In this document: in pieces, positions 24,213-34,439 of the stretch
Position numbering within the stretch: position 1 is the first letter of the stretch
How the letters are laid out: each line of letters begins with the position of its first letter
Source: Bacilli bacterium
Lineage (GTDB): Bacteria; Bacillota_I; Bacilli_A; RFN20; CAG-826
DNA length: 38,873 nucleotides
Direction of reading: 5' to 3'
NCBI GenBank assembly: GCA_017442875.1
Contig: JAFSPN010000046.1
Span: 64,723 to 103,595 of the forward strand
Made by a program: the position numbers and the translations under genes
The notes under the pieces: model-generated
What the model saw: the letters and a program-made list of their open reading frames with translations, nothing else
The model's database searches: none
Told to the model about the DNA's origin: nothing

Positions 24213-25151
24213 TTATTTTACATAATTCCCATCCATAAGTAAGGAAAATTCTTTTGGCATTGGTGATGTGAATTTAACCAACTTCCCAGTGAATGGGTGA
24301 ATGAAATCTAATTCATAAGCATGAAGACCCAATCTTTTAATTGGATTAGCGGGTTCACCGTACTTATCATCACCAATGATATGGTGACCTTTTTCACCTA
24401 AATGGACACGAATTTGATTCTTTCTTCCAGTATCGATATTGACATCAAGTAGGGAGTACGTGCCATTGGTTTTGATGACTTTATAGTGGGTAATGGCTAA
24501 TTGGCCATCACCTGGTTTTCTAGAAGAATACATCAGATTTTGACTATTCTTTTTCAGATATGTCTTAATTGTGTCGCTCGGTTTTTCCATGACGCCTTCC
24601 ACAATGGCGTAATAGCCACGCTTCTTAACAATATCATTCCATTTCTCTTGAAGAGCCTGTTGAATTTTGACATTTTTAGCAATCATAAACACACCAGAAG
24701 TATCTTCGTCTAATCTGTGAACAACGAAAACACGGTTATGTTTGTCTTTTTGTTGGACATAATCACTTAGCATACGATAGGCCGTTGACGATTTCTCATT
24801 ATCTGACGCTACAGAAAGAAGGCCGCTTGGTTTATTGATAACAATCAAATCATCATCTTCATAAATAATTGGTAGTTTGCTTCTCGTCTTCTTTTTAATC
24901 GGAGAATTAGAAATGATAATTGTGTCTTCTGGATATAATTTGAAATTGAATTGAGAAACAGGAGCCCCATCAACGGAAACGCGATGCGAAGAAAGAAGTG
25001 ATTTGACAGAATTACGAGATTGGCTCTTAAAAGTTTCTAGAAGAAACTCTAAAAGCTCGCATTCCTTTGTCACTTTGTATTCTTTGATGTTGTTATAATT
25101 CTTCTTTCTTGGCGCTTCATGAGCCTTGTTTTTGTTCATCGGTTTTTTCAT
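24213..25151 (-). CDS. RluA/RluD-family pseudouridine synthase with S4 domain
   Basis: Isomerises uridine to pseudouridine in rRNA. An S4-like RNA-binding region (about 35-85, SRNSVKSLLSSHRVSVDG) precedes the catalytic domain with the active-site motif HRLDEDTSGVFMIAKN; the later block RKNQIRVHLGEKGHHIIGDDKYG is also typical. 312 residues. The exact target site cannot be assigned. A second, shorter RluA-family gene lies at 37535. A TATAAT box sits only 8 nt before this ATG and no SD is visible, so the message may be leaderless or the start may be the ATG at codon 5. Confidence 0.88.
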   Translation of the reverse strand: MKKPMNKNKAHEAPRKKNYNNIKEYKVTKECELLEFLLETFKSQSRNSVKSLLSSHRVSVDGAPVSQFNFKLYPEDTIIISNSPIKKKTRSKLPIIYEDDDLIVINKPSGLLSVASDNEKSSTAYRMLSDYVQQKDKHNRVFVVHRLDEDTSGVFMIAKNVKIQQALQEKWNDIVKKRGYYAIVEGVMEKPSDTIKTYLKKNSQNLMYSSRKPGDGQLAITHYKVIKTNGTYSLLDVNIDTGRKNQIRVHLGEKGHHIIGDDKYGEPANPIKRLGLHAYELDFIHPFTGKLVKFTSPMPKEFSLLMDGNYVK

Positions 25152-25221: not shown

Positions 25222-26115
25222 TTATTTACCATCGCCTTCGTAACGGGTAACTTCTTTACCACGAGCGAAGGTAGCGATGATGCCTGGGCCACAGGATGTA
25301 CCAACGATAGGTCCAATCCAAATGATAGAACATTTGAGTTTGAGTTCTTCTTCCACTCTCTTTTTGAGAAGTTCAGCACGATCCATACACATGCCTTGAC
25401 CAATAACGATTTCATCAGTATCGCCTGGAACGATAACACTCTTAATGCCTTCAAAGATAGCGTTCAAAGAAGCTTTTGTACCTTTAACCTTTTCAATGGT
25501 TAAGTTGTTACCATCAGCAGCGGAGATAAAGATTGGTTTGACACCGATGATATTGCCGAAGAAAGCGGCGGTACCTTTGATACGGCCAGAAGCCTTCAAA
25601 TAAGTTAATGTATCAACGGTCGCAAAGAAGTTATAGAAATTGCGTCTTTCTAAGACCCATTTTTCTAATTCTTCAATCGAAAGACCTTCTTTTTGCTTTT
25701 TAGAAGCGTCGATTGTCAATAGACCTAACGCATATGCGGATGTGAGTGTTTCAACACCAATCATCTTGCGTTCTGGAAATTCTTCTAAAAGTTGTTCTCT
25801 AGCAAGCATGAATAAATTCAAAGAACCTGTTAGTTTGCAAGAGCACGCAAGATAGATAACATCAATTCCTTTTTCAAACAATGGACGTACTTTAGAAATA
25901 ACTTCTTCCATTGAGACTTGTGTGGTTTTAACTTTCTTACCTGCAGATAGCCAACCATAGAATTCTTCTGGGGAATATTCTTTCCAGTCAAGGTCGGCAC
26001 GATATTCTTTGCCATCGACCACTAAACCGAAATAGAAATATTCAATGCCATATTGTTTTCTTGTTTCAGTGCTGAGGTCGGAGCTAGAATCAGTAAAAAT
26101 TTGATATTTTGCCAT
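25222..26115 (-). CDS. DegV family fatty-acid-binding protein
   Basis: About 297 residues. The DegV start KYQIFTDSSSDLS, the loop TTQVSMEEV and the lipid-contact ACSCKLTGSLN segment fit the family (FakB-like). FakB proteins hold a fatty acid for phosphorylation by FakA before entry into phospholipid synthesis; no fakA lies here. The ATG at 26115 is chosen because AGAGGTGAT is well placed; a GTG nine bases earlier lies within that SD. Single-gene unit with terminators on both sides. Confidence 0.88.
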   Translation of the reverse strand: MAKYQIFTDSSSDLSTETRKQYGIEYFYFGLVVDGKEYRADLDWKEYSPEEFYGWLSAGKKVKTTQVSMEEVISKVRPLFEKGIDVIYLACSCKLTGSLNLFMLAREQLLEEFPERKMIGVETLTSAYALGLLTIDASKKQKEGLSIEELEKWVLERRNFYNFFATVDTLTYLKASGRIKGTAAFFGNIIGVKPIFISAADGNNLTIEKVKGTKASLNAIFEGIKSVIVPGDTDEIVIGQGMCMDRAELLKKRVEEELKLKCSIIWIGPIVGTSCGPGIIATFARGKEVTRYEGDGK

Positions 26116-26172
26116 ATATATCACCTCTGGCTAACATTGTGTCAAAACGTATGCATAAAAACTATATAAATG

Positions 26173-26244: not shown

Positions 26245-26382
26245 TCAAGCACCATCAATATGGGTATCGCAGATATTACGATCTTTTTTCTGGCGGTTTT
26301 CTTGCTCTCTTTCACGGAACATATCAATGTCTTCGCCAGTAAAGTATCTTTTTCTTCTTTTATGCCTTTTTACGTAATCCAT
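26245..26382 (-). CDS. 45-residue charged protein, coupled to the ATP-grasp gene
   Basis: The ATG overlaps the TAA of the ATP-grasp gene (TAATG), the arrangement of translational coupling. The product begins MDYVKRHKRRKRYFTGEDID and continues with Arg/Glu/Lys-rich sequence to DTHIDGA, ending in TGA. It has a strongly basic N-terminal third and one Cys near the end, with no signal peptide or membrane segment. The reading frame is followed by the operon terminator, and no gene is more plausible on the other strand. I do not recognise a family. Confidence 0.6.
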   Translation of the reverse strand: MDYVKRHKRRKRYFTGEDIDMFREREQENRQKKDRNICDTHIDGA

Positions 26383-27578
26383 TATCTTCTTGCTTCACAA
26401 TACTCTTGGAATTCGTTTACTTCTTCTAACGTATCAAACTTCGCCATGAAGAATCTGTTTCCCATAGCGCCACTTAAAATGTCTGGATAGCGGCCTGAAT
26501 TGCAAATATTATCATGATATCTATTTAAAATTTCTTCATCGTTATGGATATAACTAACCCAGTCTCTTCTAGAAGCACAGGCCGCGAAGTATTTGGGCAT
26601 GCTCATGTCTTGTCTGTTTTCATTGAACGCCATCACATCAGCATAAATTTGATAACAGTTCACTGATTGAGAAAAGTTGATTAAATCTGGTGTAAAGCCA
26701 CCAGCAGGCCTCATGTTGGTTTCAAGAGCGACAATATCGTTGACTTTGCCAACACCTTTTATATCTTTAGTTAACCTAAAGAACTCTAAATGAAAGAATC
26801 TCTTTTTAACATTGAATGCTTTAATAACTTTTTGGCCAATTTCTTTTAAGTCTTCAGGCACTTCTTTAGCGGTGTAATAAAAAAGATCTTTGCCCTCATT
26901 TACCACGTCTGCTACAGAGGGAGGGAAAACGTTTGAGGCACACAAAACGACGTTGCTTTCTTCGTCGCATATGCCGTCAAAAGAGATAATATTACCGGTT
27001 ACAAATCGTTCGCAAATATAAGTGATCCATGATTCTTTTTTGTTGAAAAATTCATCCACGTCCCCACTATTTTCGATTTTAAAGTCACCTGCGGCACCTA
27101 CACCAATATCAGGTTTAATGAATACTGGATAACCAACTTTATCAATAAATTTTAACAGGCTTTCTTTATCGGATACTATTGTATAGTCCGCTACTTTAGC
27201 GCCGGCTTTTTTATAAAGTTCCTTCATTAATGACTTGTGCTGCCAGTATTTGAGTTCGTCCGGTCTAACACCATTTGGAATATTGAAATCGTTTCTTAAC
27301 CAGGAGTCTTTTTCTAGCCAATACTCATTGTTACTTTCTACATAATCAATAATGCCATATTTATTTCTAAAATAAGCTACTGCTTCTCGCTCATTGTCAT
27401 AGTTTTCCATATCATAACAGCAATAATATTCATCAAGACAATCTCTTAACTCACGAGAAATCTCAAAGAAAGAAGCATCGCCGATGCCTAAAACACGGAA
27501 GCCATTGTTTTTAAGAGCTTCTGCAAATCTATAATAGGTTTGTGGAAAATGAGGAGATATGACAATAAAGTTTTTCAT
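26382..27578 (-). CDS. ATP-grasp domain carboligase-like protein
   Basis: 398 residues. The N-terminal pre-ATP-grasp Rossmann-like part (FIVISPHFPQTYYRFAEALKNNGFRVLGIGD), the ATP-binding part with KSLMKELYKKAGAKV and GYPVFIKPDIGVGAAGD, and the metal-binding end ALETNMRPAGGFTPDLINFS give the order seen in carbamoyl-phosphate synthase / peptide-ligase type ATP-grasp enzymes. Such enzymes join a carboxylate, activated as acyl phosphate, to an amine or thiol. The substrate is unknown. Only 1 nt separates it from the FGGY kinase stop and its own stop overlaps the next ATG, so three genes form a tight operon. Confidence 0.8.
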   Translation of the reverse strand: MKNFIVISPHFPQTYYRFAEALKNNGFRVLGIGDASFFEISRELRDCLDEYYCCYDMENYDNEREAVAYFRNKYGIIDYVESNNEYWLEKDSWLRNDFNIPNGVRPDELKYWQHKSLMKELYKKAGAKVADYTIVSDKESLLKFIDKVGYPVFIKPDIGVGAAGDFKIENSGDVDEFFNKKESWITYICERFVTGNIISFDGICDEESNVVLCASNVFPPSVADVVNEGKDLFYYTAKEVPEDLKEIGQKVIKAFNVKKRFFHLEFFRLTKDIKGVGKVNDIVALETNMRPAGGFTPDLINFSQSVNCYQIYADVMAFNENRQDMSMPKYFAACASRRDWVSYIHNDEEILNRYHDNICNSGRYPDILSGAMGNRFFMAKFDTLEEVNEFQEYCEARR

Positions 27579-27579
27579 A

Positions 27580-29130
27580 TTAACGTTTAAAAAGATTATT
27601 AATTGCGATATCTAAAGGTTTCAGCCTTGGATACATTTTAAGATAGATATTATGATAAATATTATCATAGAGGATATGATTTTCTTTGTTTGGTTTAAAT
27701 GTTTGAGAGAATTTTGTCATATTTTTGACTGCTTCATGAACATTTTTAAATTCTTTCACTGCAGTAAATGTAGCAATAGCGGCACCTAACGAAGTAGATT
27801 CAATTGTTTGTACTCTAGATATTTCTAAGCCGAAAATATCAGCGGTGATTTGGCAGACCTCATCACTTAATGATCCGCCACCAGAAATTCTTAATGATTT
27901 AACTTTTTGGTGTTGCGATTTTTCAATGCTTTCTAGTCCCTCGCGCAAAGCAAACGCAATGCCCTCGACGATAGCGCGATAAATATGCTTACGGGTATGA
28001 ATGTTAGAAAAGCCAACAATAGCGCCTTTAGCTAAAGGACGAGCCAAACCCGGACCCCAATATGGTTGAAGAATCAAGCCATCCGAGCCAGGCGTGACAT
28101 CATTAAGCCATTCATCAAGAATTGCTTCGATGGCAATATTACGAGATTTGGCTTCGCTTTCTAATTCACTAGCGAATTCACTAGCAAACCATTTTAGCAT
28201 CCAATATCCACGATAAATTTGAACATCCATGTTGTATAAATTTGGAACCGCGGCAGCATAGGCTGGTAAGAATGGTTCTGGTTCATGATACTTTGGATTG
28301 CTCACTTCAATTGTGCATGCGGTGCCATATGATATAGCGCCAACATCAGGTGTAAGACAACCCAAACCAATTGTTTCGCAACCTTTATCACTCCCAGAAG
28401 CAATTAGTTTAAGTCCTTTTGGCAATCCAACTTGTTCCGCAACTTCGTCTTTCAAAGTGCCGATAATTTCACCCGCTTGGACAACGCGTGGGAGCATAAA
28501 ATTGGGTACACCAAAGATGCGTCCTTTCATCGCGCCCTCTTTATACCATTCACGTTTTTTGTAATTGAGTGGATAGTGACCAGTCAAGCCACCTGGAGAA
28601 TCGGCTAATTCGCCGGTTAACTTATAGTTGATATATGTGGAAATGTTGACATATTTATCAACCTTTTCCCATATTTCTGGTTCATTTTCTTTAACCCAAT
28701 GTGCCATCGTTCTAGTTCTATTGAGGTCGATAGTATCTTTCATACCGACAAGTTTAAATAAGAACTTGTGAACGGCTGGGAGTTTTTCTTCCGCTTTAGC
28801 GAGACGTTGATCTAACCAAAGAATAACTGGTCTAAGTGGCTTATATTCTTTATCCAATAAAACGGCGGAATCTCTAAATGTGGTGACGGTCATCGCAATA
28901 ATGTTAGATAATTCGTTTGGCTTAGCGGAGCAAAGTTCTTTTAAACATTCCAATAAATCTTCCCAATAAAAGTCAGCGTTTTGTTCGGCATAGCCTTTCT
29001 TATTGGAAAAATAAATTGGTTCGTAAGCTTTTTTGGCTAAATAAACAATTTCACCACTCTTGTTAATAAGGGCGGTTCTCACTGATTGTGTACCAAAGTC
29101 TAACGTTAATACTAATGGATCCTTTTCCAT
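27580..29130 (-). CDS. FGGY-family carbohydrate kinase
   Basis: 516 residues, two actin-like domains. The N-terminal phosphate motif LTLDFGTQSVRTALI, catalytic-base region WLDQRL, the adenosine-side motif GSDKGCETIGLGCLTPD, and the FGGY second signature region GIAFALREGLESIEKSQ / RISGGGSLSDEVCQITADIFG are all visible. Members phosphorylate sugars or polyols (xylulose, ribulose, glycerol and others); the substrate here cannot be told. Long variant, lacking a canonical xylulokinase or glycerol kinase start. SD GGAGGTGA before the ATG at 29130. First gene of the operon, divergent from ppdK. Confidence 0.88.
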   Translation of the reverse strand: MEKDPLVLTLDFGTQSVRTALINKSGEIVYLAKKAYEPIYFSNKKGYAEQNADFYWEDLLECLKELCSAKPNELSNIIAMTVTTFRDSAVLLDKEYKPLRPVILWLDQRLAKAEEKLPAVHKFLFKLVGMKDTIDLNRTRTMAHWVKENEPEIWEKVDKYVNISTYINYKLTGELADSPGGLTGHYPLNYKKREWYKEGAMKGRIFGVPNFMLPRVVQAGEIIGTLKDEVAEQVGLPKGLKLIASGSDKGCETIGLGCLTPDVGAISYGTACTIEVSNPKYHEPEPFLPAYAAAVPNLYNMDVQIYRGYWMLKWFASEFASELESEAKSRNIAIEAILDEWLNDVTPGSDGLILQPYWGPGLARPLAKGAIVGFSNIHTRKHIYRAIVEGIAFALREGLESIEKSQHQKVKSLRISGGGSLSDEVCQITADIFGLEISRVQTIESTSLGAAIATFTAVKEFKNVHEAVKNMTKFSQTFKPNKENHILYDNIYHNIYLKMYPRLKPLDIAINNLFKR

Positions 29131-29290: not shown

Positions 29291-31924
<2,634 letters not shown>

Positions 31925-31979: not shown

Positions 31980-34439
31980 CTAATTAGCAGCTTCTTTTTG
32001 GGCTTTCTTTTCCGCTTTTTCTAGTTTCTTGTATTTGCGGCCTTCTTTGTTGAAGTGATGCAAGCCCTTCCAGAAGTGACCATTAAACATCATGATAAGT
32101 CCATCGAGTTGGCTCATGCGCAATCCGCCACCAGAGAACCTAGACATACCTCTCATTGGTTGATGGACAACACCCATGATTAATGTGTTTGCCAACTCAC
32201 GATTACCAAATTTAATCAAAACTCTAGTAAACCAAGGAATGGCCTTACCAACAAGACGACCAATCCATCTCTTAGAATATCTGAGCTCACTTATCGTAGT
32301 GTTATAGTCAACAACCATGCGATTCTTTTTATAGAAGGATAGTTCGCCGCTTGGAATTGGGTGACCTAATAATAATTCAAACTCTTCGTCAGGAAGGTTG
32401 CGTAAATTACCGGAAGCGTAATTAGGTAATGATTTAATATCATATGGTAATTCCGATTCCGTTCCTTTTTGAGAAATGGTGCCAGTTAATTTGATATCTT
32501 CACTAGATGAACCAACATAGACATCGTATGTACCTTTTTCAATTTCCCATTTGTTTGTTTTGGTATTGAAGTATCTAAATGCCTTGTCATCAAATGGAAT
32601 TGAAATTTTCTTTGTTTCACCCGCTTTTAGGAACAACTTTGCAAAACCTTTTAATTCCTTAACTGGCCTAATGATTTCGCTATCTTTTAAACCAACATAT
32701 AATTGAGCAATTTCTTTACCATCAACTTTACCGGTATTAGTGATTTCAAATTCGACACCTTTATCATCAACTTTAAGGTTTTTGTATTCAAAAGTTGTGT
32801 AACTTAAACCAAAACCAAACGGGAAAGCGGGTTTGACATTCGCTTTTTCAAAGTAACGGTAACCAACACCATATGCTTCACGATATTCAATTGTCCTTTT
32901 GTGGCTTGGGAAGTTATCGCTGCTAGCAACGTCTTCATATTTAACTGGTAATGTTTCTGATAATTTTCCAGACGGATTCACTCTGCCCGAAAGAATATTT
33001 AATGTGGCTAAAGCGCCCCCTTGTCCGTTTAAATAGCAGTGCAATATTGCATCCACGTCATCGATAAATGGCATTTCAACCGCACTACCGCAGGATAAGA
33101 CAATCACGATCTTTTTATTAAGTTGTTTGATATCTTTGACTAGTTCTAATTGATTGTCTTTTAGACGCATATCGCTTCTATCTAGACCTTCTGCTTCAGT
33201 CACTTCATCTAAGCCAAGATATAAAACAACTACATCAGATTGTTCCGCTAATTTGATGGCTTCGTTATGAAGTTTTTTACTCTTTCTACCATATCTATTG
33301 AAGCCCCTAGAACATCCAACTAAATTAAAGCCATAGTCTTTTAAAAGATCAGATGTTTTATCTAGCTTAGTGGGGTTAACAATTGATGAGCCCGCACCTT
33401 GATATCTTGGCAAATATAAAAAGTCACCAATGAAAGAGACTTTAGTTTCATTATTGAGTGGTAAGACACCATTATTTTTTAACAAGACTGCACTTTCTTC
33501 AGCGCATTTTTGCGCAAATAAGTGATGGTCTTCAACATCGAATTTTTCCGGTGCTTTGTTCACGCCGTTTTCCATCGTGTCAAAAATTACATCTAATAAA
33601 GTATCGATATTATCATCAAGAACCGATTCATCTAACGAACCATCTTCAATAGCCTTAAGGATGTATTCTGCTCGGTCTGGCGTGCCAGGCATTTCTAATT
33701 GATTACCGCATTTTAATGAGGCTACACCATCATTGTTGCCGCCTCAGTCAGTAACTACCAAGCCTTTGAAGCCCCATTCTTTACGAAGAATATCCACCAA
33801 TAAATGCTCATTCTCATTGGCGAATGTTCCATTAATTAAGTTATAGGAAGACATGATCGATTTGCTCTTGCCTTCTTTAATAGCAATTTCAAAAGCGGTC
33901 AGATATATCTCTCTAAATGTTCTTTCGTCAACAACACTATCAAGAGTCATTCTGTTTTCTTCTTGGTTATTACACGCAAAGTGTTTAACACAAGCAGAAA
34001 TACCGTTTGATTGAATACCTCTAATATATCCAGCCGCCATTTTACCGGCTAAATATGGATCTTCTGAGAAATATTCGAAGTTGCGGCCACATAATGGGTT
34101 TCTCTTCATATTGGTACCAGGACCAAGTAAAATGTTAACTTTTTGGACAGCGGCTTCTTGGCCTAATCTTTCGCCTAAGCCTTCGCCTAATTCTGGGTCC
34201 CAAGAGTTCGCCATTGTCGCAGCGGTTGGATAGCATGTCGCTGGAATAGAGGCATTTAAACCTAAGTGGTCCGCCGCAGCGGCTTGTCTTCTCACTCCGT
34301 GAGGACCATCACTTAAGAAGGCGCTAGGAATGCCAAGACGTTCAATGTCTCTGGATTGCCAAAAGTCTTTACCTGTGACGAGACTGGCTTTCTCCTTTAA
34401 GGTCATTTTGTCGATTAATTCTTGATGTTTCCTTACCAT
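31980..34439 (-). pseudogene. GH3 beta-glucosidase with TGA directly after the catalytic Asp
   Basis: Hydrolyses terminal beta-linked sugars. Canonical order: GH3 N-domain (SDGPHGVR, GRNFEYFSEDP, substrate-binding KHFACNNQE), GH3 C-domain (ESAVLLKNNGVLPL, VLSCGSAVEMPFID), Fn3-like domain (PFGFGLSYTTFEYK onwards), then about 110 extra residues. No signal peptide, so cytoplasmic. The nucleophile Asp231 ends GFKGLVVTD; the next codon is TGA (33746-33744), and the same frame then continues GGNNDGVASLKCGNQLEMPG to the TAG at 31980. The family has Trp here (DWGG), so TGG to TGA is one base. Everything else, 818 sense codons in all, is intact. RBS AAGGAGA before the ATG at 34439. Confidence 0.88.

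Follow-up and report, generated by a model that had tools for sequence, protein, structure and literature searches.

A 45-residue protein with a conserved C-terminal tail, encoded beside an ATP-grasp ligase and an FGGY-family kinase in uncultured gut Bacilli

Introduction

The LysW/LysX amino-group carrier system combines a small protein with an ATP-grasp ligase, and the small protein has a conserved C-terminus. In LysW-type carriers the acceptor is a C-terminal glutamate. The locus described here is alike in pairing a small protein of conserved C-terminus with an ATP-grasp ligase, but its small protein ends in alanine in all aligned sequences, no pathway genes were recognised, and some genomes carry the small gene without the ligase. 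A second point of comparison is provided by the graspetides (PMC8939145), where a small ORF also adjoins an ATP-grasp gene; the type of ligase fold and the evolutionary behaviour are different at the present locus. Among titles and abstract openings, no literature was found on the small protein or on a set consisting of kinase, ligase and peptide.

The window, by which we mean the whole stretch of 38,873 nucleotides that was analysed, is part of contig 44 of a 1.32-Mb assembly. The three genes of interest and their neighbours in the window are listed in Table 1.

Table 1. Positions of the three-gene run and of the neighbouring genes in the window
Feature	Position	Strand	Remarks
45-codon small protein	26245..26382	-	central TGEDIDMFRERE motif, C-terminal NICDTHIDGA tail; no Pfam/NCBIfam match
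ATP-grasp enzyme, 398 aa	26382..27578	-	L-amino-acid-ligase-like fold (model of fused homologue)
FGGY-family carbohydrate kinase, 516 aa	27580..29130	-	Pfam FGGY_N and FGGY_C
DegV-family protein	25222..26124	-	next same-strand gene; part of syntenic block
RluA-family pseudouridine synthase	24213..25151	-	part of syntenic block
Pyruvate phosphate dikinase (PPDK) gene	29291..31924	+	divergent from kinase; in-frame TAG 29447-29449

Results

Gene order in the window and its relatives

The kinase, the ATP-grasp enzyme and the 45-codon ORF form the tight run that the first-pass annotation had described, with a single nucleotide (27579) between kinase and ligase and a TAATG overlap (26384-26380) of the ligase stop with the ATG of the small ORF. 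Across relatives the common block consists of a divergent PPDK gene, the kinase, the ligase, the small gene, DegV, a RimK-like ligase and a pseudouridine synthase, and members of this block are absent from many lineages. The RimK-like gene (PF08443; L191:8400-9278) is a second ATP-grasp gene which recurs between the DegV and pseudouridine synthase genes in loci of the family. It was considered as a modifier of the tail described below and was set aside, since homologues were found in 161 of the 224 genomes of family f1 and the distribution is therefore not discriminating; in genome G000 there is just a 36%-identical homologue on a different contig.

Two conserved enzymes in the window were each observed to contain a single in-frame stop. 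The 878-codon frame of the PPDK gene is open apart from its TAG, at which a relative has tyrosine, and this TAG could be either a true nonsense mutation or an assembly error. The second is a TGA (33744-33746, minus strand) inside the gene at 31980-34439, which we take to encode a GH3-type beta-glucosidase. GH3 enzymes usually have tryptophan at the matching position.

The kinase and its neighbours

The profile matches identify this protein as an FGGY kinase of the ordinary sugar or polyol type, with FGGY_N at 155.3 bits (cut-off 28.8) and FGGY_C at 106.8 bits (cut-off 27). Both Pfam domains are common to this protein and the described FGGY kinases (XylB, AI-2 kinase, gluconokinase and glycerol kinase), but none of the named NCBIfam equivalogs for xylulokinase, AI-2 kinase, gluconokinase and glycerol kinase was over its cut-off, nor were those for fuculokinase, ribulokinase and rhamnulokinase. 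The best equivalog score was obtained with XylB (263 bits against a cut-off of 380.25).

Kinase homologues, paralogues included, were found in 72 of 95 genomes at E <= 1e-30. The first-pass annotation had named a lack of kinase-ligase adjacency elsewhere as a refuting condition; where the ligase match was below 1e-50 (58 genomes), the two genes were neighbours on the same strand in just 15. Among hand-picked and hence non-random loci, the upstream neighbour of the kinase was the divergent PPDK gene in 19 of 25, while the ligase lay downstream in 7 of 26. Furthermore, the kinase occurs without a detected ligase, as in G003, G013 and G028, and it looks like an ordinary, separable neighbour.

The ATP-grasp enzyme

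Two Pfam models place the window ligase in the ATP-grasp superfamily (CPSase_L_D2, 24.4 bits, cut-off 19.8; ATP-grasp_3, 24.0 bits, cut-off 23.2), as does the ATP-grasp fold of a modelled homologue; none of the listed NCBIfam models reaches its cut-off with this protein. Numbered after the first row of a 66-row alignment, K155 and E286-x-N288-x-R290 are invariant and presumably catalytic. The fold was compared using a model of the homologue from G214, which is 54% identical to the window enzyme. The closest solved folds are the L-amino acid ligases (4wd3; 3vot; BacD/YwfE, 3vmm and 3wnz), with PurK after them, although their sequence identity to the modelled homologue is 15-19%. The Bacillus licheniformis ligase 3vot_B gave a Z score of 28.7 (rmsd 3.5, 356 aligned) and RizA 4wd3_A a Z score of 27.2 (rmsd 4.8, 362 aligned). 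The structure 4wd3 is also the best PDB sequence match of the window ligase itself (E 8e-8). The overall fold of the model thus predicts a carboxylate-amine ligase of the L-amino-acid-ligase type.

The ligase was found in 185 of the 224 genomes of f1, and at least 592 stretches encoding it were found among the GTDB species genomes. The best 80 of these at least 592 loci include Lachnospiraceae, Oscillospiraceae, Erysipelotrichaceae and others, and the tail or the small protein was present at 6 of the 80. In Firmicutes this ligase commonly occurs unaccompanied by the small protein. The ligase ORF was called at 68 of the best 80 loci, and 34 of these 68 have a same-strand PF00756 esterase gene no more than 400 bp away from it. 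At some loci of other Firmicutes the ATP-grasp gene is duplicated and flanks the esterase gene in the order ligase, esterase, ligase (L202:5998-9152, L206:6001-9166 and L237:5998-9176).

Sequence features of the small protein

Conservation of the small ORF in relatives had been proposed as a check, and it holds: of 95 related genomes, 22 gave a match (E <= 4e-5) with the window sequence as the sole query, and a profile could be made from 35 members. A pooled pN/pS of 0.18 was obtained for the last 31 codons (36 pairs from nine genomes of the genus), where pS, at 0.70, is near saturation. The small ORF is therefore a real gene under purifying selection and no chance ORF. The members share a basic N-terminus, a central motif (TGEDIDMLRERE or a variant) that contains Thr, Glu and Asp, a spacer that is variable and a tail that lies exactly at the C-terminus. 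The tails read ICDTHIDGA, YKDHIDGA, YERHWDEA and similar, and the last residue was found to be alanine in 35 of 35 and in 33 of 33 aligned sequences. A model of the free peptide gave one low-confidence helix (residues 16-33) followed by a loose tail, with a mean pLDDT of 59.5.

No significant match was obtained when the 35 members were scanned against Pfam and NCBIfam, where the best E-values were 0.017 and 0.0078 respectively, with one member each. The small protein thus represents an undescribed family that is absent from both collections. The central motif weakly resembles the C-terminal helix of a protein which we take to be TrmD (L168, L169, L170 and L171); this is likely to be chance, and it leads to false rows when the family is used in profile searches.

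Distribution of the small protein

A search of 279 genomes of the order with the 35-member profile (E <= 0.01) gave 108 genomes, which became 102 after six rows were removed. Matches to the presumed TrmD helix (G164, G173, G053 and G197) were left out of all counts, as were G122, with two stops inside the match, and G088, the sole order-wide match outside f1 (E 0.008). All 102 genomes, with a single match in each, are among the 224 of f1, a family of uncultured gut Bacilli. In the class search of 395 genomes the small protein was found in five genomes of a second family, f23 (5/28); G562 was left out because the tail is absent from its sequence. In a sample of the phylum it was found in 10 of 324 genomes, every one of which belongs to f1 or f23. 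Use of the tail to tag many different proteins within a genome was not seen, as almost every genome gave a single match.

Position of the small gene relative to the ligase and the kinase

In 21 genomes (genera g1, g8, g11, g17 and g30) the ATP-grasp gene is followed immediately by the small gene in the same orientation, and G014 would be a 22nd such case in which the two genes are separated by a contig end. In g13 (G027 and G126) the two genes converge, the small gene pointing towards the 3' end of the ATP-grasp gene. Six genomes (G003, G019, G028, G042, G056 and G125) have the small gene downstream of the kinase, and their ligase is at another place or was not detected. In the fetched loci of g18 and g25 the small gene adjoins other genes.

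Genomes with the small protein and without this ligase family occur in both families, the search having covered this particular ATP-grasp family. They amount to 7 of 102 in f1 (G003, G028, G112, G125, G226, G241 and G248), although some of the absences may be false because several ligase-free genomes are incomplete assemblies, and to 5 of 5 in f23. Among high-quality f1 genomes the ligase was found in 50 of 53 with the small protein and in 53 of 66 without it (Fisher p 0.03, uncorrected for kinship, from a two-by-two table counted by hand from the match lists). This value leaves room for a closer tie between peptide and ligase than our preferred explanation claims.

Fusions that carry the tail

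The tail forms the C-terminus of the ATP-grasp ORF itself in 19 genomes of g23 and two of g55, with open frames of 427 to 465 aa. Thirteen of these distinct genomes were read as sequence and the others were assigned by match positions. The tail ICDxH(I/V)DGA was present in 13 of the 13, whereas the central GED was kept in 3 of 13. The model made for one fused homologue is confident over the ATP-grasp core and shows the tail as unstructured (pLDDT below 50 at residues 410-429), with no placement of the tail in the active site; since just 2 of 66 aligned sequences cover the tail, this model is uninformative on its location.

In addition, one assembly of f23 (G304) has the small protein in full at the C-terminal end of a GNAT acetyltransferase of 208 residues, whereas in G493, a genome of the same genus, it is free. 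Two unrelated enzymes thus carry the module, each time at the C-terminus. This is most simply explained if the C-terminus does the work and the protein in front of it is a vehicle.

Discussion

The account that we favour, with confidence a little short of even, is that the run brings together three separable functions in a family-specific way, and that the small peptide presents a free C-terminal tail to a partner. The small protein would be basic and disordered over most of its length; a short motif would form a helix, and the tail, placed exactly at the C-terminus, would be shown to the partner. Since the C-terminus alone needs to be free, fusion to the end of a preceding gene would be tolerated. 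The ATP-grasp enzyme (in two genera) and the GNAT acetyltransferase (in one genome of the other family) would be vehicles for the tail. The central motif is lost and the tail kept in most of the ATP-grasp fusions, so the motif probably docks the free peptide and would be dispensable once the tail is covalently attached to an enzyme. In the window lineage translation of the peptide is probably coupled to that of the ligase, and the two may work side by side, but we infer that the peptide is not bound to the ATP-grasp enzyme in general. Against this account, the GNAT fusion was seen in a single assembly, and an equally good explanation for the missing motif of the fusions is that it serves solely for ligase binding, which would favour a ligase subunit.

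Such a subunit, regulatory or structural, dedicated to the ATP-grasp enzyme and re-used in ligase-free lineages, is rather unlikely in our estimate. The first-pass annotation had offered the small protein as a subunit or substrate of the ligase, and the part of this that stands is the physical association: the gene follows the ligase in 21 genomes, either overlapping it stop to start or after a short gap, is convergent with it in two g13 genomes and is fused to it in 21. In the window genus, two of the three ligase-free genomes examined at the locus (G011 and G013) were also without the small ORF. An exclusive tie is weakened, because the ATP-grasp family is widespread without the peptide, which is beside or on the ligase in so few of the best 80 of the at least 592 loci, and because ligase-free genomes with the peptide occur in two families. 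In g5, g14 and g28 the small gene follows the kinase, and the ligase is at a different place or was not detected. An obligate subunit, suggested by the ATP-grasp fusions, was weakened by the ligase-free genomes of the class-wide search. Distinctly less likely is a role as substrate, with the carboxylate of the C-terminal alanine activated and joined to an amine, and the peptide serving as a carrier or protein tag. The action of ATP-grasp ligases on carboxylates, the amino-acid-ligase fold of the enzyme, the invariant alanine and the strict C-terminal position of the tail would all suit this role. However, it is opposed by the same ligase-free genomes, by the lack of recognised carrier-pathway genes in the block and by the fused model, which does not put the tail into the active site. 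The terminal position of the tail, its alanine and its presence on unrelated proteins would also agree with a proteolysis or quality-control signal, the peptide acting as adaptor or decoy for a protease that reads C-termini; this is improbable, as no recurring protease gene was seen beside the small gene in recognised clusters, and the lone NCBIfam match of this kind, to a ClpXP specificity factor (one of 35 members, E 0.0078), is not significant.

The two remaining readings treat the neighbouring enzymes as one pathway or the ORF as a precursor. The first-pass annotation had suggested that a sugar is phosphorylated and then ligated, and the small protein could serve such a two-step carbohydrate activation and ligation pathway as its carrier. 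A closely packed operon, seen in the window as well as in genera g1, g11, g17 and g30, would fit, but the low frequency of kinase-ligase adjacency leaves the pathway unsupported, the steady neighbour of the kinase being PPDK, while the ligase lies beside the PF00756 esterase at half of the loci with a called ORF among the best 80. With the kinase also present in genomes with no detected ligase, we rejected the pathway on these neighbour counts and give it a very small probability. A graspetide-like precursor of a ribosomal-peptide natural product, modified by the ATP-grasp enzyme, has hardly any probability in our view: the small ORF does adjoin the ATP-grasp gene and its central motif does offer Thr, Glu and Asp, yet the fold is nearest to amino acid ligases, most fusions drop the motif and keep the tail, and the peptide occurs in genomes without this ligase family.

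A bolder reading, which we regard as a long shot, is that the tail is a portable encoded C-terminal tag whose end is activated by the ATP-grasp amino acid ligase, or by another enzyme where this is absent. The result would be a minimal system for peptide carriage or protein conjugation in small-genome gut Bacilli, and the fused form would be a self-carrying ligase.

The operon of one genus together with the fusions would have tied the peptide to the ligase, and the wider sample disagrees, which calls for caution with such evidence. What the sample does bring out is a protein of 45 residues on which strong selection acts in roughly a hundred genomes, all from a family of uncultured gut bacteria. 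Its last nine residues persist with few changes on the ends of two unrelated enzymes, and C-terminal recognition would therefore be testable with a short synthetic peptide.
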